In this document: piece after piece, positions 3,835-37,555 of the stretch
Position numbering within the stretch: position 1 is the stretch's first letter
Layout: the number at the start of each line of letters is the position of its first letter
IMG/VR virus record: IMGVR_UViG_3300042673_000631
Span: 1 to 52,123 of that record
DNA: 52,123 nucleotides
Strand: one strand, 5' to 3'
From: a virus
Notes under the pieces: generated by a model
What the model was told of the DNA's origin: nothing
The model's database searches: none
The model's input: the letters and a program-made list of their open reading frames with translations, nothing else
Translations under genes and position numbers: made by a program

Positions 3835-4702
3835 AGCCTCACCTTTAACGCCAAACGAGATCGGGATGGCTGGTGCTGTCTCTCAAATTTCGTCAAGTTT
3901 GTCTCGGAGTTTGTTGGGTGTTATTGGTGGTTCGTCGGATGGTGTAACTGCTTTGGGTCGGTTGAGTTCGGTTGATATTTTGGATCAACTTCAGGACTTA
4001 ACACCAGCAATTATTGGTCCGTTGATAAACGAACTTAACTTGTCTGCCATTGATGCGATTGCTTCTATCCCGCCACAGTTAAGCATCGGAGTCAGTTTCA
4101 ATACCACTGACCCTCGCGCGCTCGCGTGGGCGACCCAGCGGGCTGGCGAGTTCGTTGTCCAAATCAGTGACGAGGTACGGTCACAGATCAGGGATCTGAT
4201 CTCTCGTGGATACCGTGACCAAATGACTGTAGATGCCATTGCAAGAGAACTACGGAACATTGTCGGGTTGCATTCTCGTTGGGCTACCGCAGTGGAAAAC
4301 ATGTATGTACGAACACTTGACGGGCTTATCAATTCTGGTGTTGCATTAGGTATGGCGACTACGCAGGCAACCAGTCTTGCGGGGGCGTACCGTGACAAGT
4401 TGATCGCTTCACGGGCTAACACGATCGCCAGAACCGAAGTCATTGGGGCTAATAACGCTGGACGCTATTTGGGGTGGCAACAGTTCATGCAACAGTCTGG
4501 TTATCCGCCGAACTTGATGCAGAAAGAATGGGTTGTTGGTCCTGACGGTTGGCAGGGGATTAATGTATGCGATCTGTGTCTTGAGTTAGATGGCACGATT
4601 GTTGGTGTGAATGATGAGTTTCCTAGTGGTCGGTTGATGCCTCCGTTGCATCCGAATTGTCGTTGTACTGCTTTGCTGATTTTTCCTGAGGATGGTTTGT
4701 GA
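3803..4702 (+). CDS. MuF-like phage head morphogenesis protein
   Basis: MuF-type (SPP1 gp7-like) minor head proteins associate with the portal and are ejected or help DNA exit. The evidence is the C-terminal region: TIARTEVIGANNAG followed by WVVGPDGWQGINVCDLC, and the terminal PPLHPNCRCTALLIF, with three cysteines and a histidine in the canonical MuF spacing. The start is uncertain: GTG 3803 overlaps the portal gene by 32 bases, while ATG 3866 would shorten it by 21 residues. It is not itself fused to a toxin; the effector-like domains are encoded separately just downstream. Confidence 0.85.
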   Translation: MVRLKTTSFNKASPLTPNEIGMAGAVSQISSSLSRSLLGVIGGSSDGVTALGRLSSVDILDQLQDLTPAIIGPLINELNLSAIDAIASIPPQLSIGVSFNTTDPRALAWATQRAGEFVVQISDEVRSQIRDLISRGYRDQMTVDAIARELRNIVGLHSRWATAVENMYVRTLDGLINSGVALGMATTQATSLAGAYRDKLIASRANTIARTEVIGANNAGRYLGWQQFMQQSGYPPNLMQKEWVVGPDGWQGINVCDLCLELDGTIVGVNDEFPSGRLMPPLHPNCRCTALLIFPEDGL

Positions 4703-6408
4703 TGCCGTACAAGATTGAGCAGAGGGCTGACAAGTTTGTTGTTGTTCGTGAAGACGGCGGGAGAGTTGTTGGTACGCATTCGTCTAGGGCTAAGGCGACG
4801 GCTCATGTGCGGGCTTTGTATGCAAATGTTAAGGATGCCATTGAGAAGGCAAAGTTTGCTTCTCGTAGCGAAGCAGGCAAGTACGCCGCTCACATTCGGT
4901 GGATGCGAGAGCGGGGTATGGAACCGTTAACGCCTGATGCTTGGCGTAGCCAGAACGCTCAACCAGTTCAACCGACAAGAAGTTCTTATGAAAGTTCGTT
5001 AGATGCGATCACAAGTTTTGCTAGTGATGAGTTTCAAAGCAGATTGCGTGATGCCGGTGCTTCTATAAGGGGTAGTAGGTATGACGGTGGCAGATTGGTT
5101 CCGTTAGGAGAATATTTAAATATTCAAAACGAAATGTCTGTGGTTAGAGTTCGTAACCCAAATAATCCTGTGAATACAATAATTATTGGTTCTCCTCCTC
5201 TGATGGCGGTTGAACGAGAAGTCAATGAACTGGGCGGGTTAGTGCATAATGCGATACTAGAAAAAATGAAACAAGACGGACATATTTTGCCAAACGGTGA
5301 ATTTAATACTGCCAAACACGAAGCGTTAATGCAAGTTCGTGACGAATCGCAGGCTGTTGTTGATGAGATTAGAGCCAAAGCCAAAGAATTAGGGCTACAA
5401 CAGTTCACTGGTTATGAAAACGGTGCCCAAACTGAAGAAATGAAAATTGGGTGGCGTGGAGATCCTAAAGATATAGATACTGCGGACCTCCCTCCTCGTC
5501 TCAAAAATTTGCACGAAAAATGGGACACACTGCACCAAGAATTTTACGAAATTCCGTGGAGTGAACGAGATGCGAATGTTTCAAAAAGAGAACAGTTAGA
5601 TGCCGCTAAAGACGAATACGAGAAAGCCGCGCTCGCCGATTTTGAAACTTGGTTTAACGCTAACCACAATCCGTCAGGATCTGGAAGTCACAAAGATCAG
5701 TTTTCAAAAATAAGTAATAATCACAACAACAATATGAGAGCGGTCTGGTCTTATCCAAATTATGTGGATCGGTATGCTGAAAGTTTTAGTAAAGTCATGG
5801 AAGATCTAAATATTTCTGCCAAGTCACAAATTGGTAAATCTGACCAAATTGATTTAAGTAGAAGTAGGTTGACCAAAGCAGAAAAAGAAAAGTTTGCTAG
5901 GGACATTCACACATTTTTTCCTGCTAAAGCAATCAAAATTTTTAGTGATAGATATGGCTTACTGAAAGTAACAAAATCCAAAGGTGGTGGGCATTGGAAT
6001 GTTAGTGATGTACAAATTTTGACATCTAATTCGGAAGGTACGAACATACATGAATTTATGCATGCTTTAACTTATGCGGATCGTCGGGCTAACTTTGTGG
6101 AACAAGCATTTCTTATGCGACGGCAAACAGTTGGTGGGCGTAATAATCAGCCTATTAAAGAACGCATTGTTAATGGTTGGGAAAAACCTAAACAAACTTA
6201 TGACGGAGGAAGAGGTAGACGGTTTGACTCTCTATATATTCGTGACGAGTTTGCGGATGAATATACGGGCAGGCATTATTCGTCTGGTCATACCGAAACT
6301 ATGACAACTGGTTTGGATCGCCTGTCTGAAGGTGGCACTCATATTGAAGATCAGGATCACATGAACTCTACTTTAGGTTTGCTTGTAGCGATTGGGTTGG
6401 GACAATGA
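4702..6408 (+). CDS. tagged effector-like protein with HExxH peptidase-like domain
   Basis: About 568 residues from ATG 4702 in a TGATG junction (GTG 4699 also possible). Residues ~1-45 look like a small alpha/beta domain (KFVVVREDGGRVVG). Residues ~48-73 carry the repeated tag (AKFASRSEAGKYAAHIRW, then RGM). A long charged helical region follows. Near residue 450 is HEFMHALTYADRR, a zinc-peptidase-type motif, and an acidic segment (DEFADEY) about 65 residues later could supply the third ligand. I infer a virion protein delivered with DNA. The catalytic domain family is not recognised. Confidence 0.7.
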   Translation: MPYKIEQRADKFVVVREDGGRVVGTHSSRAKATAHVRALYANVKDAIEKAKFASRSEAGKYAAHIRWMRERGMEPLTPDAWRSQNAQPVQPTRSSYESSLDAITSFASDEFQSRLRDAGASIRGSRYDGGRLVPLGEYLNIQNEMSVVRVRNPNNPVNTIIIGSPPLMAVEREVNELGGLVHNAILEKMKQDGHILPNGEFNTAKHEALMQVRDESQAVVDEIRAKAKELGLQQFTGYENGAQTEEMKIGWRGDPKDIDTADLPPRLKNLHEKWDTLHQEFYEIPWSERDANVSKREQLDAAKDEYEKAALADFETWFNANHNPSGSGSHKDQFSKISNNHNNNMRAVWSYPNYVDRYAESFSKVMEDLNISAKSQIGKSDQIDLSRSRLTKAEKEKFARDIHTFFPAKAIKIFSDRYGLLKVTKSKGGGHWNVSDVQILTSNSEGTNIHEFMHALTYADRRANFVEQAFLMRRQTVGGRNNQPIKERIVNGWEKPKQTYDGGRGRRFDSLYIRDEFADEYTGRHYSSGHTETMTTGLDRLSEGGTHIEDQDHMNSTLGLLVAIGLGQ

Positions 6409-9221
6409 TTAGGTTCGGGTATGTCCAGAATGGTGTTCAGCGGTTTGCTGAGTGGACTGAAGAGTCTGGGCTTGTATGCGAAGACGATTTGCTTGATGCC
6501 GTCAATCTTTTGATTGGGGCTAAGGCTCCTGTTAAGTGTTCTTGGGTCGGGTATTTGATGGAAGCGTCTGTTGATACTCCTGTGCAGGCGTGGGGGACTA
6601 TCAATAAGGCATTGAAGTGGTGTAATGGTGTTGAGTTGGTTCGTTGTACGCCACCGTTGATTGAGTATGACGAGTTTTCGGAACCTGAAGAGGATCTGCT
6701 TGAGAAAGCAACTTTTAGTTCACGATCTGAAGCAGGCAGATATGCCGCCCAACAGCGTTGGAAGAACCATGCGAAACAAGAAACGCTGTTAACTCCAACC
6801 GATGATGTTTCTTTGGCACAAAAAACTGGTCAACCAATTACATGGTTGCTTCCTGCTACACGGGATATGCGGTTAAAAGGTTTGTTAAGTAGTTTGGCTC
6901 CTCATTTTATTGCTACTGGTGTGTCAGTCCAAGATTTTGACTCTGTGTTGGGTGATCCAGCAATTAAACCGTTGATTAAATATTTGGAAGATAAAGGTAT
7001 TGTTGATATACCAGATTTTTATAGTTCTGAGGGTGCGACTAATGCTGAGTTGGTTGCTCACGGGTTAATTGTTTCGGCGATGCAAGACCTTGCTTTGAAG
7101 ATGAGGTCTAGCAGTTTGGATGTTGACCGAAGCAAATCGTTCAATCAGGCAATTCAGATCGCTACTGATGGTTTTCCAACAGTCAACATGGGTATTACCG
7201 CTTTTGAGATGATGATGGATGAGGGCGGTCGTTACAAGACACAGTTTGAGGCTGGTGATTCTGGTGGATATTTTAGTCCAGATTTGCGGGCGGCTTTTGA
7301 ATCTAGCGTGTTGGGTTTACATCCTGACATGGATGCGACTAAGCGTCCCGTGTATGGCACTATGCAGACCTCAACAAGTTTAAAAACAAGTGAAGATGCT
7401 CAAATGTACGGTGGCATTGTTTTGCAGTTAAAGAATAATGTTCGGGATCGGACAACTGTTGCTTACAACGATTCGTTGGGTATGGCGACAAGAACTGCTC
7501 CAGCAAACAGTGTTAAAGATGATTCTGGTGGCATGTTTCGTACTGGCATGATTACGGAACCGTTTTTTTATGTTGAGGCTCAGATTCATGGTGGTGTCAA
7601 CATGGATGATGTTGATGCTGTTTGGATTCACAATTTTACGGGTGTAGATGCTGAGGCTCCTCGTCGTGTAAGGGAAGCGTTGGATGCGAATGGGTACACG
7701 GATGTTCCTGTGTTGCGTGTGGGCGTGGACGAACCTGTGGAGAAAGCGAAGTTCAGTTCACGAAGTGAGGCAGGTAGGTATGCGGCTCACATTAGGTGGA
7801 TGAATGAGCGTGGTATGACTCCGATGACCGCCGACCAGTGGAATGCACAGAACTCTGGTGGTTCGGAGCGCATGCGAAAGATTAAAAGCATGCAAGCGGA
7901 TGTTTCTAAGCGACTTAAAAACTTGAATGATGTTTTGGTTAAGTCTGGTTTGGCATCTGAGGGAATGTGGAACCAAGGAAGATTAGATAGTAATGGTGAT
8001 TTAAAGTATGTTGTTGTTGATCCTAAAGATTGGGATAAGACCAGCGTTCCTGAGGTAAGTAAAAGTCCGATGGCGGCATGGCTTGTTGAAGTAGACATAA
8101 AAAACCCAGAGAGTCCTTTTGCAACATATCAAGTTCCTAATGCTGAGGTCATGGCTTTGATGGAGGATGTTAAAACTTTAGGTTCGTTAATTGAAGAAGA
8201 AGTTCAAGAGCGGATCAACGCACAAAATATTCGTTTGGCAACTGGAGCAGAAGCATCCCGTGACTTTACTTTAAAAATTGTTAACGCCCAGAGAGTGATA
8301 ACGCATTACGAAACAATCACTTCCAGATTTTTGAATGATTTCATCACTTTTAAAGCAGATCCGAATGACCCAACACCAAAATTTCAACAATATGTTAAGT
8401 CAGGTCAACCTAAAATGATTGGGAGCCTTGTTGATTATGCCCCAAGTTTGGGAGAATTTATTGAAAGTAATAACAGTGCTGACGAAAAAGTTTTGCTTTC
8501 TGCTTTAATAGAAAAAACGCGATCTTCTGTTCTTGAATTAAACCAATTAGGATTTGAGCAGAACACTTCGGCAAAATATCGGCGTGAAGTTTTGGCTGAA
8601 ATTCGTTCTTTCGGTGCTGACGAAGGTACTCCTTATGAAATTGTTACTGGTTTCAATTTCCCGAATGGGGCACCTGTAGAAGTCCGTATTGCTGATGCGA
8701 TGCAAAATTTACCAACGGCATGGATTGACAATTTAAAAACTTACACGCAAACAAAAACTACGCATAGAGTGTTAAGAGCAAAAACTGTTAACGAAATGCA
8801 ATCAGGGTACATTGAAGCGAATCATATAATTCAAACTTCGGCAAATGCTCAGACTGCTTTTGTTATCCACGAATTGGTTCATGCTGTTGAAGCGTCAAGC
8901 CCAGTCATGCGAGCAATGGTTCATTCTTTTGGTGTCAATAGAAGAGTCGGTAATTTTAGACCTTCAGAAGAAAAGTTTGGTAGCACTTTTGCTCAAAGGT
9001 TACAAACTGGGATTTGGGAAGAATCTGGGCGATCTGGTTTCGTTGAAGATAGTTATTTTGATAAGTATTCTGGGCGTGTGTACGGCGGGTTCGCGTATTC
9101 TGCTCACGAACAGTTGACTACGGGGACAGATTATTCGTTGTTTGTCAATACGATTCGTCCGCATGACCGTATTGACTCGGATCAGTTGACTTTTACATTA
9201 GGAATGTGGGCTTCAGCATGA
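6405..9221 (+). CDS. two-cargo tagged effector: ART/DUF3626-like plus HExxH domain
   Basis: A 938-residue protein that reads like two tagged proteins joined. Residues 1-97 form an N-terminal domain also seen in the 9218 protein. Tag 1 (~101-123) is followed by a domain with RPVYG (R314), a central strand region with DRTTVAYNDS, and YVEAQIHGG (E391, Q393). This resembles DUF3626/ADP-ribosyltransferase-type domains. Tag 2 (446-471, KFSSRSEAGRYAAHIRW then RGM) is followed by a helical region and HELVHAVEA (H822, E823, H826), a zinc-peptidase-type motif. No signal peptide or membrane segment is seen. The ART assignment is by motif only. Confidence 0.7.
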   Translation: MIRFGYVQNGVQRFAEWTEESGLVCEDDLLDAVNLLIGAKAPVKCSWVGYLMEASVDTPVQAWGTINKALKWCNGVELVRCTPPLIEYDEFSEPEEDLLEKATFSSRSEAGRYAAQQRWKNHAKQETLLTPTDDVSLAQKTGQPITWLLPATRDMRLKGLLSSLAPHFIATGVSVQDFDSVLGDPAIKPLIKYLEDKGIVDIPDFYSSEGATNAELVAHGLIVSAMQDLALKMRSSSLDVDRSKSFNQAIQIATDGFPTVNMGITAFEMMMDEGGRYKTQFEAGDSGGYFSPDLRAAFESSVLGLHPDMDATKRPVYGTMQTSTSLKTSEDAQMYGGIVLQLKNNVRDRTTVAYNDSLGMATRTAPANSVKDDSGGMFRTGMITEPFFYVEAQIHGGVNMDDVDAVWIHNFTGVDAEAPRRVREALDANGYTDVPVLRVGVDEPVEKAKFSSRSEAGRYAAHIRWMNERGMTPMTADQWNAQNSGGSERMRKIKSMQADVSKRLKNLNDVLVKSGLASEGMWNQGRLDSNGDLKYVVVDPKDWDKTSVPEVSKSPMAAWLVEVDIKNPESPFATYQVPNAEVMALMEDVKTLGSLIEEEVQERINAQNIRLATGAEASRDFTLKIVNAQRVITHYETITSRFLNDFITFKADPNDPTPKFQQYVKSGQPKMIGSLVDYAPSLGEFIESNNSADEKVLLSALIEKTRSSVLELNQLGFEQNTSAKYRREVLAEIRSFGADEGTPYEIVTGFNFPNGAPVEVRIADAMQNLPTAWIDNLKTYTQTKTTHRVLRAKTVNEMQSGYIEANHIIQTSANAQTAFVIHELVHAVEASSPVMRAMVHSFGVNRRVGNFRPSEEKFGSTFAQRLQTGIWEESGRSGFVEDSYFDKYSGRVYGGFAYSAHEQLTTGTDYSLFVNTIRPHDRIDSDQLTFTLGMWASA

Positions 9222-10192
9222 AATTAGATTGGTTGACCGTTGACGGTGACAGTATTTCGTGGGATAACGGGGTGGTTGATGCCCCGCAAGAGTTTTTGGA
9301 CAATGTGGACTTTCTGGTTGATGCGAAGGTTCGTGTTCGGTCGCCTCGGTTTTATTTTGCTGAGGAGGTTGCTGGTATGGACACGATGTTGGGGGCTTTG
9401 TTGACGATTGAGTTTTTGTTGGATGTTTTGGGTGTTGGTTTGGTTGAGGCTCCGATGCCGTTTGGGGTGTCGGATGTTTTTGTGACTGATAATCACGATG
9501 TGTTTGATGGTTCGGGTGAGTTTGAGAAGGCTATGTCTCGGAGTGAAGCGGGCAGGTATGCGGCGGAACAGCGTTGGAAGAACCATGCGAAGAAGGTTGA
9601 TCCTGTTCGGGTGCTTGATCCGCAGTATCAGAAAGTTGCTGATCGGATTAACGCTGGTACAAAATCAGTAACTGATGCTGGTTTCCAAATTGAAATAATC
9701 AATTCTCCTGAAGATCGGCAACGCATATTGGAGATGCATACAAAATTTAAAGATTTTGTTGTTGAACAAAGGAATTTGTGGCGAGATACAAAAGGAAAAG
9801 AAGGTAAATATTTTTCTGATAGAACAATTTCTGGTCTTCAGTTAATGACAACTTCTATAAAAAGGGGAGCAACACGAGGGACAACAATTGTTGTTCACGA
9901 TGGATCATTAGTTGCTGGTGCCGCTCTTGCTCATATTCAGACAAACAGTATGGCTGATGGTAAACCTATGTCAATTTGGCTTATGGGGTCGGCTCATATA
10001 GTTGAAGGTGCTGGTTCTGCTATGTATGGCGCGCTTTTGAAATGGGGTCAATCTCAAGGTGTTACATCTATTGAATTAGATCCGTTACCTGATGCTAAAA
10101 CTTTTTGGCAGACAAAAATGAGAATGATTTGGACTGGTGAAGAAATGGTTTATTCTGATAGCAAAATTGGAATGATTGGGGCGTTGAAATGA
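9218..10192 (+). CDS. tagged effector-like protein with GNAT-like domain
   Basis: About 324 residues from ATG 9218 in an ATGA overlap (an in-frame ATG at 9206 lies inside the previous gene). Residues 1-100 are related in pattern to the N-terminal domain of the 6405 protein. Residues 103-123 carry the second tag subtype (AMSRSEAGRYAAEQRWKNH). The C-terminal half looks like a GNAT acetyltransferase: TIVVHDGSLVAGAALAHI strands, then GAGSAMYGALLKWGQ as a candidate acetyl-CoA loop and helix, then SIELDPLPDAKTFW. Substrate unknown. Confidence 0.7.
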   Translation: MKLDWLTVDGDSISWDNGVVDAPQEFLDNVDFLVDAKVRVRSPRFYFAEEVAGMDTMLGALLTIEFLLDVLGVGLVEAPMPFGVSDVFVTDNHDVFDGSGEFEKAMSRSEAGRYAAEQRWKNHAKKVDPVRVLDPQYQKVADRINAGTKSVTDAGFQIEIINSPEDRQRILEMHTKFKDFVVEQRNLWRDTKGKEGKYFSDRTISGLQLMTTSIKRGATRGTTIVVHDGSLVAGAALAHIQTNSMADGKPMSIWLMGSAHIVEGAGSAMYGALLKWGQSQGVTSIELDPLPDAKTFWQTKMRMIWTGEEMVYSDSKIGMIGALK

Positions 10193-11268
10193 TCGGGTCG
10201 TTGGATGATATGGATGATGCGATGCCTGATCTATTGGATTGGCTTCGTTCTAATGTTGAGTTTGAGAAAGCAAAGTTCAGTTCTCGTAGTGAGGCTGGGA
10301 AGTATGCGGCTCATATTAGGTGGATGAACCAGAGGGGTATGACTCCGTTGTCTGCTGAGGCTTGGACGGCTAGTCAGAGTGCTGATGCGACACCTGTTGT
10401 TACGGCTCCGACTGTACCGTCACGGTTTACTGCTACTGGTATGTGGTGGGATGCACAACCGCCCGCTCTTGCTTCTATGAAAGATGCGATCACATGGTTG
10501 CAGGATAAATGGGGTGGCACAACAAAAGATCAACGGCGTAGATTCAGAGTAAAACTGAATGCTATGGGAAGTAACCCCAAAACGGATCATTTGGCTCAAG
10601 CGTATGCCATTGCAATGGATAACTTGTTTAAATTTGCACCTATCGTGGCGGAAACTATTGAAGAAGTAGTTTGGGATGAAAATCAAATACGGAATTCGTG
10701 GGGTCAGGCTAGTCGTGATGGTCACAGTCTAAATTTCATTGCAAGCACTTTTGTACAAACTTTGATACAGCCAGATGGAACAGTTATCCCTTCGGAGCAA
10801 TATGCGTTGTTTGCAAAAGAACAAGCATTTTCAACGGGGTTCAAATCTTCAAGGTCGCTGAGTAGCACTTTTTATCACGAGTTTGGGCACCACATTGGGT
10901 TTGCCGCTGGTAATAAAGCGTTGTACGGCGATGTTAAAGAAGTTAGACCATCCTTGTATGCGGATTCAGATGATCGTAAAAAGTACAATCGTGAACTTGC
11001 CAAATTGATTAGCCCGATTCTTAAAGAGCATTACGGAGATGAAAGTCGTGCAAGAATTGAACTTGATGATAAAGCGCAATATAAAATACGGGGAAAAATA
11101 GAAGAAGACATATCCAAATATGCTTTGACTAACTACGACGAATTGGTTGCGGAATCAGCGGCACAGTATTTTGCCGCCAAATTTGAACCTGACCAACCGC
11201 CAGCGTCACCGTTAGCAATCAAAATTGTTGAGACATTATTGAATTACATAGAAGGAGAGAACAAATGA
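10189..11268 (+). CDS. tagged effector-like zinc metallopeptidase
   Basis: A 359-residue protein with a very short N-terminal lead, the tag at residues 26-51 (KFSSRSEAGKYAAHIRW then RGM) and a C-terminal peptidase domain. HEFGHHIGF begins at H230. ELVAESAAQYF at 318-328 supplies a typical downstream glutamate (E318 or E322), the gluzincin-like arrangement seen in many phage-encoded peptidases. It starts in an ATGA overlap and is followed by two small genes. The peptidase fold is well supported; its target and virion location are inferred. Confidence 0.75.
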   Translation: MIGSLDDMDDAMPDLLDWLRSNVEFEKAKFSSRSEAGKYAAHIRWMNQRGMTPLSAEAWTASQSADATPVVTAPTVPSRFTATGMWWDAQPPALASMKDAITWLQDKWGGTTKDQRRRFRVKLNAMGSNPKTDHLAQAYAIAMDNLFKFAPIVAETIEEVVWDENQIRNSWGQASRDGHSLNFIASTFVQTLIQPDGTVIPSEQYALFAKEQAFSTGFKSSRSLSSTFYHEFGHHIGFAAGNKALYGDVKEVRPSLYADSDDRKKYNRELAKLISPILKEHYGDESRARIELDDKAQYKIRGKIEEDISKYALTNYDELVAESAAQYFAAKFEPDQPPASPLAIKIVETLLNYIEGENK

Positions 11269-11501
11269 CTGAGGGTTTAACGATCTGTTGGGCTTGTAAG
11301 CACTTGCGAGCAGATTCAGCCGTTGTTGACGGTTGGATGGTTTCCACATGCGACGCTTTCCCTGACGGTATTCCGATCAAGATCTTTATTGATGGGTTTG
11401 ACCATCGGAAAGAATTTGGTGGCGATAACGGGGTACGCTTTGAACCGATAACGGTTGATATGGGCGTTGAGGCTCTAAAAATAGTTGAGGAGTTGTCGTG
11501 A
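11265..11501 (+). CDS. small hypothetical protein
   Basis: A 78-residue protein starting in an ATGA overlap behind GAAGGAGAG. Two early cysteines (CWACKHLR) and a third (STCDAFPDGIP) suggest a small metal site; the rest is acidic. Its position just after the tagged peptidase gene allows a role as an immunity or accessory factor, but similar small proteins occur widely in phages, so this is only a possibility. Confidence 0.6.
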   Translation: MTEGLTICWACKHLRADSAVVDGWMVSTCDAFPDGIPIKIFIDGFDHRKEFGGDNGVRFEPITVDMGVEALKIVEELS

Positions 11502-11680
11502 TTTTGATTGCAATGGTTGATAATGCGAAGGTGTTTGACATTGAAGACGATGATCCGATGTTCGGCAAGCGTGTTGTTCTGGAGCGTGGCGGTGTTCAGA
11601 GTGCCCCGATCTTGTTGGAGAATGTGGTTACGAAAATGTCTATGAGCAAGTGGGAATGGATCAACCCCCCTACTAAATAA
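11498..11680 (+). CDS. small hypothetical protein
   Basis: A 60-residue protein starting at GTG in a GTGA overlap with the preceding gene. It is acidic in the middle (FDIEDDDPMFG) and has no recognisable motif. It closes the run of overlapping genes that began at 2395; 30 bases separate it from the next gene. Confidence 0.55.
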   Translation: MILIAMVDNAKVFDIEDDDPMFGKRVVLERGGVQSAPILLENVVTKMSMSKWEWINPPTK

Positions 11681-11710: not shown

Positions 11711-13720
11711 ATGCATACACACGAAATAGACCAGTGGATTAACGGCGATCTGGCGTGGGAAGATTTGTCTGTTGAAGCGCAACGAAGTGTTGATGCTGAT
11801 GCGATGAAGGCTGAACCTGTCGCCGAAATGGAACTGGTTCACAAGTCGGTTGCTGAGAAGCGATTCACTTTGGGTCCGTGGTATATCCCTAATCGGTTGG
11901 ATGCTCATAATGAGTGGACGGACGCTGACGAGTTGCAGGCTGGTTTGTGGGATTATGTTCGTAAGGGTGATCGTGGTATCCGTTTACAGCACAATCGTGA
12001 CATTGTGGCTGGTGAATGGGTTGAGGCTATGCAACTGCCTGTACCGATGCGAATGCAGAAAGCGGCTGACGGCGGGGATGTTGAATATCCTGAGGGGACA
12101 GTGTTTTTGGGTGTTGTTTGGAAGCAGTGGGCGTGGGATCTGGTGAAGAACGGCAAAATTAAAGGTTTTTCTATTGGTGGTTCGTCGGCTCGTCTGCCAA
12201 TTGAGCCTGTTTCTAAGGCTGTCGGGTTCAAACCGATGTTTATTCCTGCGTTGATTCGGGTTTCAGGTAAGTCTTTTGCTGTCCGTCCAGATGGTGGAGG
12301 GGTTCGGGTTTCGTCGGGTTCTGATGCTGTTGTGTTTGATCCGTATCGGGCTGATGTGGTTGCTAAGTCTGTTTCTGGAGCGCAGTTTGCTGATGCGAAG
12401 ACGATGGTGGCGATTTCTAAAGCGATCTTGACTGGCAATGTTGATGCTGGAATGTGGGCTGATACTGGGGTTTCGTGGGTTTTTGTTAAGGCTAAGTTCA
12501 GTTCTCGTTCTGAGGCGGCTCGTTACGCCGCTCATATTCGTTGGGCTACTGAACGAGGTGAAACCCCGATGGGTGCGGGCGAGTTTTCGGAACAAATTAA
12601 GTCGTCTGCGGATTATGCGATGATGAATTTGAAGAAAAATCGTGATGCTTTGGCTTCCAAGATGGAGTTTCCGCATAACGATCTTCCTGTTGGTCCGTTG
12701 GGTTTGCCAACTTCTCCTGCTGGTAAGTCTTTGTTTAACACTTCTCCGTCGCTTGGCGGGCATGTTGATTTTGACGCTATGGGCAAGTACATGATGGATC
12801 GTTTAGATCAACCGAACATGGGTTTTGGTAAGGCGGGGTTGCCTACAGAAGCACCGTATGATGTTCTTCGTCGTTTTATGACTCCTGAACGGCGGGCTTT
12901 GCACGATGCGATCGTTGACGCTCATTTGGCTGGCAAAACGGCTAGAGATGATACCCCCGAATACACTTGGCTTGGTGGTGGTGGTGCTTCTGGTAAAACC
13001 AGCATTTTGGAATCTGGTGCCGCTAGTGTTCCGACCCGTGTTTTGAAGAATGGTTCGGCTGTACCAAGTGGTGATATGCACTCTGTTGAGATCAATGCTG
13101 ACGAAATCAAAGATTTGTTACCAGAGTTTTTGGCGTTGACAAAGGGTGGGGAAAAAAGGGTTTATGTCACTGCTGACGGTAGAGAAAAGCCTTATGAATT
13201 GGGTCGTTCAACTGAGCGGGCACGATTTGTTGCGGCTGGTTTTACTCACGAAGAGTCGTCTATCCTTGCGAAGCGTATTAACTCCGAGGCTATGTACAGA
13301 GGTTTGGACATTGTGATGGATGGTACTGCTGACGGCAAACCGGGGGCACAAGCGAAGAAGGTTGCTGTGGCTCAAGCAAACGGCTATAAAACTCGTTTGA
13401 TTATGGTGACTATCCCTACCGAAGTGGCTATTGTTCGTTCTAATGAGCGAGGTATTACTTCGGGGCGTAAGGTTCCTGAGTTCGCTTTGCGTGACGCTCA
13501 TGTTGGGGCTTCGGCAAGATTTTTGGAAACGGCACCGCTGTATGACTCTTTTGAGGCTTATGATAACTCAGGGCGACCGCCACAAAAATTTGTAAGTAAG
13601 AGTACCAAGGGTGGTCGGGTTACTATTCAAAATAAAGCCCTGTATGATGCTTTCTTAGCGAAGGCTGGCGAAAGTTTGGGCGAGTCAACAGCAAGGGATG
13701 AACCGTGGACATTAGCGTAA
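11711..13720 (+). CDS. XkdF-like head protease fused to tag and zeta-type kinase
   Basis: A 669-residue fusion. Residues ~40-170 resemble the XkdF-like putative prohead protease (FTLGPWYIPNRLDAHNEW, LQHNRDIVAGEWVEAM, KGFSIGGSS). The tag is at 260-283 (KAKFSSRSEAARYAAHIRW). The C-terminal part carries a Walker A motif LGGGGASGKTS (K429) and resembles zeta toxins, which phosphorylate UDP-N-acetyl-amino sugars: DGTADGKPGAQAKKV, then a YKTRLIMVTIPTEVAIVRSNERG segment. The ribosome site AAGGTGA precedes ATG 11711. Fusing the maturation protease to a kinase through the tag is unusual. Catalytic residues of the protease cannot be assigned by eye. Confidence 0.7.
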   Translation: MHTHEIDQWINGDLAWEDLSVEAQRSVDADAMKAEPVAEMELVHKSVAEKRFTLGPWYIPNRLDAHNEWTDADELQAGLWDYVRKGDRGIRLQHNRDIVAGEWVEAMQLPVPMRMQKAADGGDVEYPEGTVFLGVVWKQWAWDLVKNGKIKGFSIGGSSARLPIEPVSKAVGFKPMFIPALIRVSGKSFAVRPDGGGVRVSSGSDAVVFDPYRADVVAKSVSGAQFADAKTMVAISKAILTGNVDAGMWADTGVSWVFVKAKFSSRSEAARYAAHIRWATERGETPMGAGEFSEQIKSSADYAMMNLKKNRDALASKMEFPHNDLPVGPLGLPTSPAGKSLFNTSPSLGGHVDFDAMGKYMMDRLDQPNMGFGKAGLPTEAPYDVLRRFMTPERRALHDAIVDAHLAGKTARDDTPEYTWLGGGGASGKTSILESGAASVPTRVLKNGSAVPSGDMHSVEINADEIKDLLPEFLALTKGGEKRVYVTADGREKPYELGRSTERARFVAAGFTHEESSILAKRINSEAMYRGLDIVMDGTADGKPGAQAKKVAVAQANGYKTRLIMVTIPTEVAIVRSNERGITSGRKVPEFALRDAHVGASARFLETAPLYDSFEAYDNSGRPPQKFVSKSTKGGRVTIQNKALYDAFLAKAGESLGESTARDEPWTLA

Positions 13721-14029: not shown

Positions 14030-14413
14030 ATGAAACCAATTGCTGTATACGGAACCCTGATAAAAGGATTCCACAACTCACGGCTGTGGGATGGGCTTGC
14101 TACCTACGAGGAGTGCATCATCCACGATTTCCGTCTTGTCACTCACGGGTGGTACCCGTATGCGATACCAGACGAGGGATCAATAACAGTCGGTCAAATT
14201 ATTACGCCGACAAGTGAAGTTAACGCTTCAACGATCTTGTCTCGGCTTGATTATTTAGAAGGTGTTCCCGATCATTACAGTCGTGAATCTGCAACTGTTG
14301 AACTTGAGAATGGTGCGATTGTTACTGCATGGATTTATGTTCCTGTGAGTGATGAATCAAGTTTGGATCCTGTGCCAGAAAACGACTGGCGACTTTACGC
14401 AAGTCTTGTTTAG
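14030..14413 (+). CDS. gamma-glutamylcyclotransferase-like (GGCT/AIG2) protein
   Basis: A 127-residue protein with ATG behind GAAGGAGGG. The N-terminus AVYGTLIKGFHNSRLW has the family's YGTL substrate loop, and RLDYLEGVPDHYSRE supplies the expected glutamate; ITAWIYVP-type strands follow (TAWIYVP). GGCT enzymes cyclise gamma-glutamyl groups, releasing 5-oxoproline. In actinophages they are known beside amidoligase and class II amidotransferase genes. Here those genes are at 43461 and 44381 behind the same promoter type, so the three probably act together on a peptide or wall modification. Confidence 0.8.
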   Translation: MKPIAVYGTLIKGFHNSRLWDGLATYEECIIHDFRLVTHGWYPYAIPDEGSITVGQIITPTSEVNASTILSRLDYLEGVPDHYSRESATVELENGAIVTAWIYVPVSDESSLDPVPENDWRLYASLV

Positions 14414-14450: not shown

Positions 14451-15149
14451 ATGGCTTCGCGGAAAATGGTAAACATGAACATTGAAGAGACTTCTGGTGT
14501 TGACCATCCCGCGCACATGGACGAAGGATGGATCCTTATGAAGAACTCTGGTTTAAACACCGAAGATTTTGAAACGATTGAAAAAATGGTCGCTTTGGAA
14601 TCAGAACTTGCTGACGCTCAGGCTCGCCTTGCCTCTTTAGAAACTGAAGAGACAACCGAAGAGACAACCGAAGACATGGACTACATGGACGACGATGCGA
14701 TGATGAAGTCGGCTCCGCCTGCTGTTCGTGAAGCATTGTTGAAGGCTCGTAACGAGGCTTTTGTTGCTCAGGAAGAACTACGCAAAGAGCGTGAAGTCCG
14801 TCTTGACGCTCACGCAATTGCTAAGAGCATGGACGATTATGGCAATCTTGCTATTGACCACGAAGAATTTGGTCCTGCCCTTCGCCGTTTGGAAGAACTT
14901 GACGCAACAGTCGTTGAGATCATCGCTAAGGCTTTGCAGTCCGCTAACGCTCAGGCTGAATCAGCCAACATTTTTGCCGAAATCGGCTCTTCATACATGC
15001 CAAATACTGCTGGCAGTTTCCAGAAGATTGAATCGCTCGCTAAGTCCGCTGTGACCAAGGGCGAATATAAGACCGTTGAGCAAGCAATCGCTGGCTTGAT
15101 TGAAACCAACCCATCGTTGTACGCAGAGTACATCGCTGAAACCCGCTGA
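14451..15149 (+). CDS. putative head scaffold protein
   Basis: Up to 232 residues from ATG 14451 (ATG 14466 or 14475 are alternatives). The N-terminal segment EETSGVDHPAHMDEGWILMK is typical of proteins lying between protease and capsid genes. Residues ~45-80 are acidic and low-complexity (EETTEETTEDMDYMDDD), and the rest is almost entirely helical and charged with a coiled-coil pattern. That composition and the position just before decoration and capsid genes support a scaffold. A short repeat GAGACAACCGAA encodes the ETTE doublet. Confidence 0.65.
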   Translation: MASRKMVNMNIEETSGVDHPAHMDEGWILMKNSGLNTEDFETIEKMVALESELADAQARLASLETEETTEETTEDMDYMDDDAMMKSAPPAVREALLKARNEAFVAQEELRKEREVRLDAHAIAKSMDDYGNLAIDHEEFGPALRRLEELDATVVEIIAKALQSANAQAESANIFAEIGSSYMPNTAGSFQKIESLAKSAVTKGEYKTVEQAIAGLIETNPSLYAEYIAETR

Positions 15150-15167: not shown

Positions 15168-15563
15168 ATGGCATACGAAATTTCCAATTACAGCGTCAAA
15201 ATCACCCTTGTCGCCGCCGCTGACCTTAGTGCGAAGCAGTATTACTTCGTCAAGATCAACACTTCGGGTCAAGCCGCGCTTTGTGCGGCGGCTACTGACA
15301 AGCCGATTGGCGTTCTTCAGAACAGCCCAACCGCTGGTCAAGAAGCCCAAGTTCTAGTTATTGGTGGAACTAAGGTCGTTTGTTCCGCAAGCCTAGACGA
15401 AGGTGTTGCTATCGGCACGACTTCGGCTGGTAAGGCTGGAGCAAAGGTTGTCGGAACTGACACCACTAACTACATCGTCGGTCAAATCATCCTTGCGGGT
15501 GGAGCCGACTTGGATATTGCAACCGCTGTTATTAACTGTGCATCGCCTGCCCGCGCCGCCTGA
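15168..15563 (+). CDS. head decoration-like protein (DUF2190-like)
   Basis: A 131-residue, Ala/Gly/Val-rich beta protein with repeats of the type GVAIGTTSAGKAGAKVVG and DKPIGVLQNSPTAGQ. This pattern is typical of DUF2190-like proteins encoded directly before a major capsid gene. It probably binds the outside of the mature head. GAAGAGGA precedes the ATG at 15168. Identification is by pattern and position. Confidence 0.65.
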   Translation: MAYEISNYSVKITLVAAADLSAKQYYFVKINTSGQAALCAAATDKPIGVLQNSPTAGQEAQVLVIGGTKVVCSASLDEGVAIGTTSAGKAGAKVVGTDTTNYIVGQIILAGGADLDIATAVINCASPARAA

Positions 15564-27469: not shown

Positions 27470-28527
27470 TGGCTGGAATATGGGTTCATAACGGTTCTGG
27501 TTTTCAGCCGGTTTCTTCGGCTCAAGCACCGTATGTTCATAATGGCACTGAAATGAAACGCACTAAAACTGTTTGGGTTCATAACGGTACGCAGTTCGTT
27601 CAGGCGTATCAGTACGACACTACTAATCCTGTTATTAACGCCAATAGAACTACGACAGGTTTGTCTAATGCGAACATGAGGTTTGCTTGGTCGGGTGGGG
27701 CGTTAGTTACTGATGCTGATTCTGGTGTTGCTTCAGTAAAGATTCAGGTTCAGTACACTCCGTATGGAGGTTCGGGTGAGGGTTGGTCTGACTTCCAGAC
27801 TTTGACTCAGGCACAGTGGGAGGCGACTTCGGGTTCGTTTGATTTTACTCCTTCAACTGCCAAGCGTCGCCAATGGGTTTTCTTTACGGAAACGGTTAGT
27901 CGTTATTATGTCGGGTTCCGTGTTGTTGCTACCGACAATGTGGGGTTGGTTACAAACTCTAGTGAGGTAGCGGCATTTACTAAGCCTTATGGTGGATTGT
28001 TAATTGCTCCAGCCTCTGGTTCTACTGGTTCGGACTCGTATGGTGTTAGCCCTGCCCAATGGTTTGGTTTGACTCAAGGTGGCGTTCGTTTTGGTAACGG
28101 TACAAGTGCTGGTTTAGGTAACTGGACGAACGGTGCGTACTTCTATGGCACAGAACTTGCAGATGCCTGTCTCGGTTATGCACCTGACTCTGGCTCATTC
28201 ATAGTTCAACGCAAATCGTCACAAGGTACTTCAGGCACTGCGTACTTCAAGTACCACGGCAACACATTTTCCACAGGAGCAACTAACGCAACTTTTGGTG
28301 GCGACTTTGTTTCATTTAACCTCACAGGAACTGATGTTTCGGGAACTCTTTCTATGCCTGCTAACTGGCTGTCTGATATTCCGTCTGGAACGGCTAGAGG
28401 TTTTGGTATGTTAAACGGTGGAAGCAGTACGGTTATCAAAGTTCTTTATACTTGGAATGAACAAATTGTCGGCAGTTCACCTCCCACATATTCAAGTTCT
28501 GGCGTAATTTCACTCAATTTTAGTTAG
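27469..28527 (+). CDS. minor tail protein with three VHNG repeats
   Basis: A 352-residue protein from ATG 27469. The N-terminus has three short repeats: GIWVHNGSGF, APYVHNGTEM and TVWVHNGTQF, at ~20-residue spacing. A fibronectin-like segment follows (ADSGVASVKIQVQYTPYGGSGEGW). The C-terminal ~170 residues form a jelly-roll-like beta region rich in Gly/Ser/Thr. It is probably a surface-exposed receptor or glycan-binding tail protein. Confidence 0.65.
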   Translation: MAGIWVHNGSGFQPVSSAQAPYVHNGTEMKRTKTVWVHNGTQFVQAYQYDTTNPVINANRTTTGLSNANMRFAWSGGALVTDADSGVASVKIQVQYTPYGGSGEGWSDFQTLTQAQWEATSGSFDFTPSTAKRRQWVFFTETVSRYYVGFRVVATDNVGLVTNSSEVAAFTKPYGGLLIAPASGSTGSDSYGVSPAQWFGLTQGGVRFGNGTSAGLGNWTNGAYFYGTELADACLGYAPDSGSFIVQRKSSQGTSGTAYFKYHGNTFSTGATNATFGGDFVSFNLTGTDVSGTLSMPANWLSDIPSGTARGFGMLNGGSSTVIKVLYTWNEQIVGSSPPTYSSSGVISLNFS

Positions 28528-32847: not shown

Positions 32848-32850
32848 GTT

Positions 32851-33048: not shown

Positions 33049-33110
33049 GGTTTTGTTACTGTGGTGATGCGAATACCACTATTGGGGTAGCGTTCACTGC
33101 GGAGGTAACG

Positions 33111-34833: not shown

Positions 34834-34856
34834 ATACCGCTCAACATGATGTTGAC

Positions 34857-34869
34857 TAGCATACGGTTG
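34857..34869 (+). promoter_or_regulatory. -10 element of a probably leaderless start
   Basis: TAGCAT (34857-34862), six bases (ACGGTT), then GTG 34869, with no ribosome site and 35 bases after the previous stop. It matches the layout at 2383, 30467 and 45900, and would drive the second effector cluster. Confidence 0.5.
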
Positions 34870-36488
34870 TGGATTTTGACCTGACTGAGTTAGAGAAAAA
34901 GATGTCTCCTTCGGAGGCTGGTCGTTACGCCGCTGAGATGCGATGGCGTACTCATTCTGGTGCGCCTCGGATGGCTGGGGATAACACGATTTCGTTGCCT
35001 GATCGGTTGAATCGGGCTACTGACAACATGTTGGCTAAGGGTGGCAGTGTTTCTCATTTGGGTGTTGATGAGAGTGACGCTGTTTTGCGTGGTGCGATGA
35101 TGATGGTGGAGCGCACTTTTAGTGAGGCTCGTATGAATCAGCGGGATTACGAGTTGAATGTGCATGCTCAGAAGTCGTGGAATGAGGCTCGTAAGGATCC
35201 TTCGGCGATGCTTCATGTGGTGCGTGTTGGTCGGAATATTGCGGCGGTTGCGGTTACGGTTCGTCCGAATGATGCGACGGTGGAGATTCGGCATTTGAGT
35301 TCTACTGGGGTGTTGAAGGGTGCTGGTTCGGCTTTGTTGGGGTCAATCATTAAGAAGGGTGTGAAGGGTGGGCGTACTACTTTTCGGGTTACGCCGTCTG
35401 AGGAATCTAAGTCTTTTTGGGATGAGTACGGTTTTAGTGGTGCTGTTTATGACCAGTTGGGTAATCCTGATGGGTCGCAGGATTTGGTTGTGAAGCCTGA
35501 GTGGTTGCGTGTTCTTAAGGCTATGTCAAGGTCTGAGGCGGGGAAGGTAGCGGCTCAGGCACGATGGAAGAACCATGTAAAAACAACTGATGCGACACCT
35601 GTTGCTCCGCCTGTTCAGCCGTCTACCCCTAAAAAAATTGCTACTAAGCAGGGCATCGGTCGTGCGTTGAATGATGCGGGGATTAAGAAAACTGGGTATA
35701 TTTATTCGTCCAGAATTCGTGGTTACGCTACACCGACTTCGGGTTGGGAATCTGTGGAAACTGAGAACGGTTTTAAAGTTACTTTCAAGATGGTTAGTGG
35801 TGGAGTGCGAGCGCATTATTCCCAATCTCAAGAAGTGAAAGATCGTATATCGGCTGTTAATCAAGAATATATTGATGGTCAACTGAAAAGAATGCATGAT
35901 GCTCTTAAGGCAAAAGGGTATGACACTTCGTTTGATGGTGAAACAATTTTCGTTAATAACACGAGTCCAGTTTTGGGAGTTTCTTCAAGATCTTCTAGTC
36001 CCGCCAAAATGAGGCAAATAGAGTCAGTGACAACACGGTTTACCGAAATGTCCAACAGTGTAGCCAAGGCTTTTTCTGAAGAATATATGAAAAAGGCGGG
36101 TCTAAAATTAACCGAACAAGGTTACGGTCAAAAAGAGGCTACAGAGGCTGAGTTAAAACTTGGAAAAGAAAAGAAAGACTTCCTCATAAAAATTTTGGAT
36201 GAGCAAGGCAAGAAGGCTCAAGGTGCGATAGAAAATCTTGCTCAAGGATTTATGCCTTTATCGCAAAAAGATATCTTGCAAGGTGTCCGCTCATTTTTAA
36301 AAAGCAAAGAAAAAGAAACTGTTCGGGAAATGCAAAGCAAAGGTTTAGGGTCTTCTAAAAAAGAAGATACTACCGTTGGTTCTATGGTTTATTCAACTAC
36401 GCGAGCGGTTTTAGAAAATGCACGACTGTTTATTGATTTAGCAATAGAACGAGCCACGCCTCTAGTAGAAAAACAACCGAAAGGGTAG
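34869..36488 (+). CDS. two-cargo tagged effector: GNAT-like plus unknown domain
   Basis: A 539-residue protein with two tags. Tag 1 is at residues 9-29 (EKKMSPSEAGRYAAEMRW). A GNAT-like domain follows, with a candidate acetyl-CoA loop LKGAGSALLGSIIKKG and TTFRVTPSEESKSFWDEYGF. Tag 2 is at 217-236 (KAMSRSEAGKVAAQARW). The C-terminal ~290 residues are charged and helical with no family I recognise (KIATKQGIGRALNDAGI, then long helices). The double layout parallels the 6405 protein. Start GTG 34869 is favoured by the leaderless -10. Confidence 0.65.
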   Translation: MDFDLTELEKKMSPSEAGRYAAEMRWRTHSGAPRMAGDNTISLPDRLNRATDNMLAKGGSVSHLGVDESDAVLRGAMMMVERTFSEARMNQRDYELNVHAQKSWNEARKDPSAMLHVVRVGRNIAAVAVTVRPNDATVEIRHLSSTGVLKGAGSALLGSIIKKGVKGGRTTFRVTPSEESKSFWDEYGFSGAVYDQLGNPDGSQDLVVKPEWLRVLKAMSRSEAGKVAAQARWKNHVKTTDATPVAPPVQPSTPKKIATKQGIGRALNDAGIKKTGYIYSSRIRGYATPTSGWESVETENGFKVTFKMVSGGVRAHYSQSQEVKDRISAVNQEYIDGQLKRMHDALKAKGYDTSFDGETIFVNNTSPVLGVSSRSSSPAKMRQIESVTTRFTEMSNSVAKAFSEEYMKKAGLKLTEQGYGQKEATEAELKLGKEKKDFLIKILDEQGKKAQGAIENLAQGFMPLSQKDILQGVRSFLKSKEKETVREMQSKGLGSSKKEDTTVGSMVYSTTRAVLENARLFIDLAIERATPLVEKQPKG

Positions 36489-36490
36489 TT

Positions 36491-37555
36491 ATGAATAAGT
36501 CATTGGAAACTGTGTTGAAGGCTTTGGAGCAGGACGCTTTGGCGTTTTGTTCGGAGTCGGATTGGGCGATCGTTGTTGCTGAATGCGAGAGGGCTGGGAA
36601 TGTTCGTCGTATTTCTAAGTCGGCTCAGGTGATTTTGCAGAAGGCTATGTCTCGTTCGGAGGCTGGTCGGTTTGCGGCTGAACAACGGTGGAAGAATCAT
36701 CAGAAGCGGACTGCAACATATTCTGGTGTTGAACGAAACACTACTGATGAAAGTCGTAAGTGGAAATTTAGTACCGATAAACCGAGCCATTTGGATGAGG
36801 CTTCAAATAATGCTCGTTTGGAATCGTGGACTTCCGACAGTGAAGTTCCAGATCCTTCTGGTGATGGTTATTGGACTAAAGGTGATTGGAATTCAGATGA
36901 TCCTGATTACGGTCGTCGTTATTCTGATTACGACGAACTTAGTGGTCCTGAATCAAATGATGCTGGGATTGATTATCAACTAAGCGCACAGGCTAGAGAT
37001 GCTGGTATCAGTTTCGGTCCTAGGCGGAACCCTTTTCAAGATATGGAGCCTTTTTCTGATGAAGTTTTTAATGACATTAAAAGTGGTAAAACAACACCAA
37101 TCGCCACAGGTTTTGATGAAGTAAGAAAAGGTATTGACGAGGCTTTTGCAAAAATTCTTGAAGCAGAATCTGATCCGATTAAAGTAAAGAGTGCCATGAA
37201 AGTTAAAAGGAGACTTTTAACAAATATGGCTCAGCAAGGCAAGTTGGCTCAAGAGGCTCTTGAAGAATTGGTTTCAGCAAGTGATCCTAGACAGGCAATG
37301 AAAGAATTGAAAGCCGCAGGAGCGCACCTAAGTATTGAGGCTCGTCAAGCAAGGCTAAAGCAATTTGAGCGATATGAAAAGCCAGAAGCAAGCGTTACCA
37401 TTCGGGCGGCACTTAACCTTGAAAACGCAATAGTGGAAAAACTTTATGGCATTATTAGCGAACAGGCTTATGGTGTTGGCAAAAGGCTTGGAACTTTTAG
37501 GGGCGGTAATGGTCATTTTGATGTGGGCGGTGTCATAAATCCTGACGGGTACTGA
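36491..37555 (+). CDS. tagged effector-like protein, unknown domain
   Basis: A 354-residue protein. Residues 1-50 are a helical lead; the tag is at 51-70 (KAMSRSEAGRFAAEQRWKNH). Residues ~75-190 are acidic and low in hydrophobics (DGYWTKGDWNSDDPDYG). The rest is helical with ALEELVSASDPRQAMKELKA and a glycine-rich end (GNGHFDVGGV). I recognise no enzyme motif. The start at ATG 36491 is two bases after the stop of the previous tagged gene, suggesting co-transcription. Confidence 0.6.
   Translation: MNKSLETVLKALEQDALAFCSESDWAIVVAECERAGNVRRISKSAQVILQKAMSRSEAGRFAAEQRWKNHQKRTATYSGVERNTTDESRKWKFSTDKPSHLDEASNNARLESWTSDSEVPDPSGDGYWTKGDWNSDDPDYGRRYSDYDELSGPESNDAGIDYQLSAQARDAGISFGPRRNPFQDMEPFSDEVFNDIKSGKTTPIATGFDEVRKGIDEAFAKILEAESDPIKVKSAMKVKRRLLTNMAQQGKLAQEALEELVSASDPRQAMKELKAAGAHLSIEARQARLKQFERYEKPEASVTIRAALNLENAIVEKLYGIISEQAYGVGKRLGTFRGGNGHFDVGGVINPDGY

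Follow-up and report, generated by a model that had tools for sequence, protein, structure and literature searches.

This study revealed that a short peptide tag recurs nine times, on seven open reading frames (ORFs), in the 52,123-base record of an uncultured virus (IMG/VR record IMGVR_UViG_3300042673_000631; this whole stretch is hereafter referred to as the window). The tag consists of KAxF, one of D, S, N or T, RS[EA]A[GA]RYAAxxRW and a basic linker, and it lies between an interchangeable leader and an interchangeable cargo domain. The same tag was found in many other uncultured phages, where it is maintained at the peptide level, lies predominantly among head genes and connects the head maturation protease to cargo. 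We propose that it is probably a docking helix for the prohead interior, by which the tagged effectors would be packaged and injected. A capsid-packaging or ejection signal for host-directed cargo had already been suggested by a first, sequence-only reading of the window; of the explanations considered, it is the one best supported by the varied enzyme domains and the position in the head-gene block, and the packaging itself is the conjectural part of it.

A fuzzy search for SRSEAGRYAA in six frames, with up to three substitutions allowed, returned nine places, all on the plus strand and all within the ranges of the sequence-only reading, which had arrived at the same count of copies and of tagged proteins. 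The profile of alignment A3, based on 83 tags from the window and other phages, recovered the same nine (E 2.3e-19 to 1.4e-13) and, at E up to 1, no further tag in the window. The nine copies are:

4834-4920, plus strand: tag 1 (KAKFASRSEAGKYAAHIRW), profile E 4.6e-16
6699-6782, plus strand: tag 2 (KATFSSRSEAGRYAAQQRWKNH), profile E 2.3e-19
7734-7817, plus strand: tag 3 (KAKFSSRSEAGRYAAHIRW), profile E 5.8e-18
9518-9595, plus strand: tag 4 (EKAMSRSEAGRYAAEQRWKNH), profile E 1.4e-16
10258-10341, plus strand: tag 5 (KAKFSSRSEAGKYAAHIRW), profile E 2.7e-17
12482-12565, plus strand: tag 6 (KAKFSSRSEAARYAAHIRW), within the head protease fusion, profile E 8.8e-15
34887-34964, plus strand: tag 7 (MSPSEAGRYAAEMRWRTH), profile E 1.4e-13
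35514-35588, plus strand: tag 8 (KAMSRSEAGKVAAQARWKNH), profile E 7.9e-14
36638-36712, plus strand: tag 9 (KAMSRSEAGRFAAEQRWKNH), profile E 9.4e-16

Eight residues are invariant in all nine copies, giving the pattern S.SEA...AA..RW. This pattern occurs nine times, whereas about 1.1e-5 occurrences would be expected from the residue composition, which rules out a chance repeat. The two subtypes that had been distinguished earlier are real but form part of a wider range, as one window copy reads MSPSEAGRYAAEMRWRTH and other phages exhibit GGDRSAAGRYAA and RW-G forms.

The similarity between the copies resides in the peptide. Among the 375 pairs of codons encoding the same residue in the nine window copies, 57.3% differ synonymously, compared with 58.2% expected for independent draws from the codon use of the phage. 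At the DNA level, the copies are hence old or independent, and it is selection on the peptide that has kept them alike. A DNA repeat, a recent duplication and gene conversion are all ruled out by this saturation.

The search of IMG/VR was seeded by the nine-copy alignment, which led to 35 loci. The GGDRSAAGRYAA subtype led to at least 67 loci (from its best 80 matches) and the RW-G form to 28, with some loci in common. On 115 uncultured-phage loci, the window included, the profile gave 601 matches, of which 571 exceeded 12 bits (overlapping loci being counted repeatedly) and only six fell between 8 and 20 bits; matches of 12 bits or less were discarded before counting. Less redundant totals are 288 distinct tags and 209 tagged ORFs at 90% identity. 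Most of these ORFs carry a single tag (158), while 34 carry two, 14 carry three, and one each carries four, five and six. Tags within an ORF are spaced 121-500 residues apart, and the first tag lies a median of 60 residues from the start of the open frame. Alignment A3 holds 83 of 109 distinct tags: near-duplicates were thinned, a decayed protease tag (L011:17551-17640) and a borderline one (L026:1003-1092) were excluded, and the pattern used for selection missed tags truncated at the end of an ORF as well as three that have S at position 15.

Within the searches made, the tag is confined to uncultured-phage contigs with a common head-gene block. A general bacterial motif is unsupported, since none of the 161 stretches found by pattern in GTDB contigs was confirmed by tblastn and only two marginal profile matches were obtained in 396 Actinomycetota genomes (E 5.8e-4 and 8.5e-4 per genome), with up to 20 first-look candidates scored per genome, including the larger ones. 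One of the two matches (L237) lacks the RW half. The other (L236) is a 73-residue frame reading SPSAAGRSAASARW, with a score of 22 bits. This lone cellular tag-like stretch may be due to chance, or it may be a stray relative, because well under one chance match would be expected at such E values and with a search of this size. Relatives of the capsid protein were found in GTDB on eight contigs of metagenome-assembled genomes from mixed phyla, two of them short; none of these eight contigs carries a tag (best score 6.2 bits).

The comparisons with Pfam and PDB provided no named family for the tag. When the 83 tags were compared with Pfam-A at E up to 1, four unrelated families were matched, with one member each, and the search of PDB gave only one chance-like match of 10 residues. 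The loose resemblance to KGG-type motifs noted in the sequence-only reading gained no support: Pfam, which presumably includes a KGG family, returned only these four families, and the searches of cellular genomes yielded almost no copies of the motif. In a tblastn search of 50,697 phage records with four tag queries, two queries gave no match, one gave six weak mycobacteriophage matches (E 5-10), and a 54-residue query gave 17 records at E 1-8, with T4 and P1 absent, the sensitivity of short queries being limited. Overall, such short-peptide searches of named phages and plasmids, with their limited sensitivity, yielded nothing useful. In the literature, with most subscription journals outside the scope of the search, no description of such a tag was found; one unrelated paper matched the form of the motif.

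The S78 head maturation protease provides a natural control. All 14 orthologues with more than 400 residues behind the protease domain carry an intact tag. In contrast, the protease of G001, with 127 further residues, has a tag that lacks the near-invariant A19 and W23, and that of L016, with 122 further residues, has no tag. Among the orthologues ended by a contig or piece, one more is tagged and two are untagged. As the tag is intact with long tails and decayed or absent with tails of about 125 residues, it goes with the cargo and not with the protease.

The cargo was found to be highly diverse. The 150 residues behind the tag form 78 clusters without BLAST similarity, and the 47 residues before it form 76 (tags cut by contig ends were excluded from these counts and from the dialect counts given below). 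The three commonest leader clusters comprise 60, 27 and 26 tags, paired with 14, 11 and 15 cargo clusters, respectively; examples of recurrent leaders in the window are 36491-36640 and 4699-4833. Behind the last tag, 198 of the 209 ORFs possess 110 or more residues, and nine of the other 11 run off the end of the locus. The shorter of the two complete short-tailed ORFs (18 residues, the only complete one below 100) is a protease with a decayed tag. A scan against Pfam and PHROGs, limited to 86 representative tagged ORFs from the first 35 loci and the window, yielded 22 Pfam families in total, including Peptidase_S78_2 (7), DUF3626 (6), ADPrib_exo_Tox (6), Acetyltransf_10 (6), DUF6321 (5), Zeta (5), DUF5872 (4), topoisomerase IB (2) and an ATLF-type metallopeptidase domain (1). 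Several such domains can be present in one ORF, as in L047:12699-16316, which comprises an S78 protease, three tags, DUF6321, DUF5872 and a Zeta kinase, and in L092:2678-7909, which comprises DUF3626 and an acetyltransferase domain.

Leaders and cargo combine freely at the tag. Twenty-five leader clusters pair with two or more cargo clusters, and in cross-contig pairs with homologous cargo the leader is also common in only 470 of 1334. Moreover, the ORF at 10189-11268 stands alone in the window, and L011 and L013 contain its counterpart as the rear half of a longer tagged ORF. These observations would suit a recombination seam, meaning a DNA repeat or neutral linker that permits the swapping of modules and has no function in the protein. 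However, the synonymous sites are saturated while the residues are invariant, the protease tag is decayed or absent where no domain follows, and a neutral linker would not hold A14, A18, A19, R22 and W23 at 99-100%. The seam is largely refuted by these results, and we give it hardly any credence.

The head genes of the window and its seven tagged ORFs, two of which lie elsewhere, are as follows:

2356-3834, plus strand: portal protein (Portal_Mu E 1e-30, phrog_113 E 1.1e-85)
3803-4702, plus strand: MuF minor head protein, 299 residues (Phage_Mu_F E 8.7e-13)
4699-6408, plus strand: ORF T1, one tag; leader (phrog_3684, E 2e-5), tag, HExxH zincin-like region
6405-9221, plus strand: ORF T2, two tags; leader, tag, ADP-ribosyltransferase (ART; DUF3626 E 2.8e-9), tag, HExxH zincin-like region
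9206-10192, plus strand: ORF T3, one tag; leader, tag, tentatively GNAT-like domain (similarity to tagged ORFs that align with the GNAT of ORF T5)
10189-11268, plus strand: ORF T4, one tag; tag, HExxH zincin-like module
11711-13720, plus strand: S78/XkdF head maturation protease, one tag, Zeta kinase, as a fusion (Peptidase_S78_2 E 4.6e-9, Zeta_toxin E 4.2e-16)
14451-15149, plus strand: probable scaffold, judged by position (phrog_13547, listed in PHROGs as of unknown function)
15168-15563, plus strand: head protein (phrog_673 'head scaffolding', E 5.9e-15; 'head fiber protein' in the annotation of Kovu and Kharcho)
15581-16531, plus strand: major capsid protein (phrog_1005 E 4.6e-99)
34869-36488, plus strand: ORF T5, two tags; tag, GNAT fold, tag, unassigned module (Foldseek, GCN5-type acetyltransferases, E 4.2e-6)
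36491-37555, plus strand: ORF T6, one tag; leader common to other tagged ORFs, tag, unassigned module

The named cargo of the window is enzyme-like: ART/DUF3626 in ORF T2, HExxH in ORFs T1, T2 and T4, Zeta in the protease fusion and GNAT in ORF T5. The sequence-only reading had placed the tag always before an enzyme-like domain, which applies to seven of the nine copies at most, as no domain could be assigned to the last module of 34869-36488 or to the module of 36491-37555; in 4699-6408, the HExxH site lies about 400 residues behind the tag. The domains it had named differ in their support. Zeta toxin and DUF3626 score above the Pfam cut-offs, the HExxH sites are read in the translations of 4699-6408, 6405-9221 and 10189-11268, and the GNAT stems from a low-confidence model. 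No Pfam match was found for ORF T3, and no named relative at E 1e-3 for the zincin module of ORF T4. The fold search named only the ART and GNAT modules, both from poor models: that of ORF T2 resembles ADP-ribosyltransferase structures such as SopF (E 3.3e-5), and the GNAT fold is the first module of ORF T5, for which the model has a predicted local distance difference test (pLDDT) score of 56.

With regard to gene order, the start of each of ORFs T1, T2, T3 and T4 overlaps the preceding stop, that of ORF T1 overlapping the MuF stop codon. ORF T4 is followed by two small overlapping ORFs of 78 and 60 residues (11265-11680), the protease-tag-Zeta fusion, a gamma-glutamyl cyclotransferase-like gene (14030-14413), which is also present in G001, G003 and G005, the probable scaffold, the head protein and the capsid gene. 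ORFs T5 and T6 (34869-37555) lie between a metallophosphoesterase and a replication gene. Further downstream, the window contains an amidoligase and glutamine amidotransferase pair (43410-45142), which is shared with G001, G002, G003 and Arthrobacter phage Kharcho.

In eight records, comprising the window and seven others, 44 of 57 tagged ORFs are located in the head-gene block, from portal and MuF towards the capsid gene. Together with the 115 loci, this agrees with the expectation of the sequence-only reading that profile matches would adjoin varied enzyme domains in virion gene blocks. The seven records come from 22 that were searched whole, among the matches listed, and were mapped with the window proteins. 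Some ORFs were split at the edges of 20-kb pieces, and G002 38939-41320 was counted once. The map of G022 covers its first 20 kb only, with the capsid gene outside; the G008 contig has neither portal nor MuF, and G004 has part of MuF. G010, with two tagged ORFs, was mapped with no head-gene match and is excluded from the 57. Five mapped records have capsid proteins 75-100% identical to that of the window, and their cargo is nonetheless different: G001, in which the capsid protein is the same as in the window, has no match to the Zeta module and combines ORF-T4-like and ART modules in one ORF. The tag is absent from the portal, MuF, capsid and scaffold ORFs of the mapped records, and in the window it is present only in the seven cargo ORFs.

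The last observation bears on the possibility that the S78 head maturation protease cuts at the tag, in which case multi-domain precursors would be split into free effectors and their leaders discarded. In favour of this, domains are separated by tags, of which a polypeptide can contain up to six, tags also link the protease to its own cargo, and the leaders of phage T4 are described as both targeting signal and propeptide (PMC9026906). However, the usual substrates (capsid, head, portal and MuF proteins) carry no tag in the window and mapped records, the conservation extends over 13-14 residues and thus exceeds the need of a cleavage site, and the 158 single-tagged ORFs would have only a leader to release. 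Cleavage is consequently considered unlikely.

The tags also exhibit phage-specific dialects. Tags on non-homologous cargo are 63.8% identical when they come from the same contig (1118 pairs) and 52.5% identical when they come from different contigs (69,700 pairs); 500 label shuffles gave at most 54.0%. Some contigs are uniform at the residue following RW: all 12 tags of one contig and all 10 of another have G there, and further contigs have K in all 8 of their tags or Q in all 7. In leave-one-out prediction from the same contig, this residue was correct for 224 of 322 tags, compared with 136 of 322 for the overall majority and a maximum of 151 after shuffling. One shared partner per phage would produce such dialects, and descent of modules within a lineage would contribute as well.

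Among 262 distinct tags, A14, A18, A19 and R22 are conserved at about 100%, W23 at 99%, R11 at 98% and S12 at 93%, and 98% of the tags have D, S, N or T at position 10. From this pattern, we infer an N-capped helix with small residues at i, i+1, i+4 and i+5. In AlphaFold2 models, helices at residues 107-122 and 453-468 of ORF T2 and at 14-30 and 210-239 of ORF T5 cover all four modelled tags, and the flanks are flexible.

The tag has a net charge of +3.7 per 25 residues, against about -0.4 in its flanks. This charge, the near-invariant R11 and R22 and the presence of topoisomerase IB in the cargo could also be explained if the tag bound nucleic acid, so that the packaged DNA would carry the proteins into the head, or the proteins would act on intracellular DNA. 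On the other hand, the four small residues, invariant or nearly so, are suitable for tight packing against a protein, no DNA-binding family of Pfam is matched (and PDB gives only the chance-like match mentioned above), the replication and methylation genes of the window have no tag according to the profile, the two matches in 396 Actinomycetota genomes are marginal, and phage-specific dialects would not be expected for general DNA binding. This explanation appears rather improbable to us.

Relatives from public databases offer a further control. In seven public phage genomes, searched whole with the profile at E up to 1, no tag was found, while the window, used as positive control, gave 9 of 9. 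Five of the seven (Arthrobacter phages Laroye, Kovu and Kharcho, Microbacterium phage ValentiniPuff, and MT835491) have homologous portal and MuF proteins, and four of these five have the protease and four the capsid protein; the tag is equally absent from the remaining two, DSL-LC01 and PSS2. The annotated genomes of Laroye, Kovu, Kharcho and ValentiniPuff also lack the tagged gene block. The annotated MuF comprises 530-552 residues in Laroye, Kovu and Kharcho and 312 in ValentiniPuff, compared with 299 in the window. This suggests that the tag and MuF fusion may be two interchangeable routes. In INPHARED, the window Zeta module has a single relative, gp030 of cyanophage PSS2, in which Zeta is joined to MuF; the same cargo would here take another route, which is in favour of the docking helix. 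In Laroye, Kovu and Kharcho, an S78 protease domain was also observed at the C-terminus of the 'RNA ligase' gene (L142:14345-15499, L141:13978-15153 and L144:17323-18621, respectively), and the head protease of these phages may also be joined to an enzyme.

The window ART module likewise has one relative in INPHARED, located in DSL-LC01, a metagenome-assembled phage genome with an Actinomycetia bacterium as record host, where the ART gene follows the portal gene. Its homology with the tagged ORFs of G001, L011 and L013 starts a few residues behind the tag, and with ORF T2 of the window only a shorter part aligns. The place of the tag is occupied by RRDRxGKFAxMG, which recurs in a giant protein and in the capsid protease. 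This motif (L146:13695-13769, 16867-16941 and 28344-28418; L160; L158) was found in 86 ORFs of 81 loci. Because just three loci have it in two or more ORFs, it is considered a suggestive parallel and no more.

Another explanation has less to do with the tag than with what the cargo acts on, and could be compatible with packaging: the cargo would consist of toxins against other cells, either MuF-type interbacterial toxins or a 'Trojan horse' against protist grazers, and the tag would only anchor them. Acetyltransferases and topoisomerase IB are not typical toxins, and no tag was confirmed in the GTDB contigs, which hence give no sign of prophages. The system does not look like MuF toxins either, as the window MuF has no second Pfam domain and 101 of 183 tagged ORFs run straight into another tagged open frame, which would leave little room for an immunity gene behind those 101. 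In comparison, a small ORF is reported after 89.4% of 191 MuF toxin genes (PMC5576092). MuF toxins as such are known (PMC5576092), and for ART genes from freshwater phages a role as VIP2-like toxins directed at eukaryotic predators has been proposed (PMC6802176). We regard cargo aimed at other cells as very improbable.

The docking helix is the best-supported explanation given the spread of the tag, its varied cargo, its position in the head block, its link with the protease, the selection on the peptide, the dialects and the helix pattern. The tag would fold as a short capped helix with a small-residue face (A14, G15, A18, A19) between R11, R22 and W23. We infer that this face would bind one shared prohead component, either the scaffold, MuF, the portal or the inner capsid wall, that any domain joined to the tag would be loaded during head assembly and ejected with the DNA, and that the ejected cargo (ADP-ribosyltransferases, acetyltransferases, zincin-like peptidases, Zeta-type kinases, topoisomerase IB and unassigned domains) would act on the host or its defences early in infection.

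Nevertheless, several points weigh against this explanation. The tagged proteins are known here from genes alone, and 13 of the 57 tagged ORFs are located elsewhere, beside a replication gene or upstream of the portal. Homologues of the portal, MuF, protease and capsid proteins are also present in tagless relatives. The 'head morphogenesis' family phrog_7625 is matched by 3 of the 86 tagged ORFs, although none of them is recognized by the Pfam MuF model. The dialects are mixed in some contigs, as in the window (K 4, M 3, R 1, A 1), and the likeness of tags within a phage may partly reflect common descent of modules. Many loci are overlapping or near-identical, so that the counts and the pairs of the dialect test are not independent. 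Finally, both AlphaFold2 models are poor (mean pLDDT 61 and 56, with about 42-69 in the tag stretches), and a basic tag fits nucleic-acid binding too.

Phage T4 internal proteins and P1 DarB may serve as working precedents, and the polyvalent proteins as an architectural one. The T4 internal proteins Ip1-3 are described as having only an N-terminal leader in common, which directs packaging (PMC12373910, PMC9026906); in IPIII, the first 10 residues of the leader are enough, and the leader is removed by gp21. For DarB, 30 N-terminal residues are reported to suffice to bring a reporter into the capsid (PMC9024508). A short tag on many separate genes, which the sequence-only reading had taken for a different scheme, is thus precedented. 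The tag resembles the T4 capsid-targeting sequence of IPI-III as a short signal common to unrelated proteins, here with 288 tags, 209 ORFs and 78 cargo clusters; the T4 proteins are packaged and injected, and their repertoire varies between relatives (PMC9026906, PMC12373910). In contrast to the N-terminal T4 signal, the tag is internal and is present up to six times per protein. Its carriers include large enzymes and also the head protease, and the phages concerned possess MuF and a protease of the XkdF type. The tag likewise resembles the DarB segment as a putative capsid address, which in DarB directs a large injected protein (PMC9024508), whereas the DarB signal is described on one protein and is N-terminal. 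No sequence kinship with the T4 or P1 signals was detected in the tblastn search of 50,697 phage records, with its limited sensitivity.

Polyvalent proteins (Iyer et al. 2017, PMC5512222), which are predicted to be packaged, combine unrelated effector domains such as ART, GNAT and zincin in one polypeptide in phages with a portal-terminase system. The tagged ORFs have the same late-gene context with a portal system, and disparate domains are united in L047:12699-16316, L092:2678-7909 and ORF T2, although most tagged ORFs are single-tagged. What sets the tagged ORFs apart is that one and the same short tag precedes each module; neither 'linker' nor 'short motif' is used as a term in the main text of PMC5512222. 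MuF fusions and toxins, such as PSS2 gp030, involve the same kind of effectors in the same gene region, but the window MuF is short and separate, its cargo is encoded by separate tagged genes, and Phage_Mu_F is not among the 22 families of the 86 ORFs. The DSL-LC01 group has a homologous ART beside the portal and a motif common to the ART, the giant protein and the protease; that motif is unrelated to the tag and is present on one ORF only in most loci. What is new here is an unrelated sequence, internal and repeated, that forms one label for tens of domain families.

In a more general view, to which we assign an even chance, the portable helix would be a universal address label with one prohead receptor and lineage dialects, any domain behind the label would be injected, and address systems would be exchangeable parts of phage heads, because relatives with homologous heads would use MuF fusion or RRDRxGKFAxMG instead. 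Injected proteins are usually learned phage by phage, via proteomics. If the docking helix is correct, the injected arsenal of a phage could be read from its tagged genes, and dozens of unassigned protein families would belong to it. It would also provide another reading of the freshwater-phage ADP-ribosyltransferase genes that one paper considers toxins against grazers (PMC6802176). The tag would represent a second, independent family of multi-cargo head-targeting signals beside that of T4, internal and repeated, and would offer a compact, transferable module by which proteins could be brought into phage heads. As a searchable signal, it would predict injected proteins across uncultured phages and yield unstudied domains that probably act on hosts or their defences.

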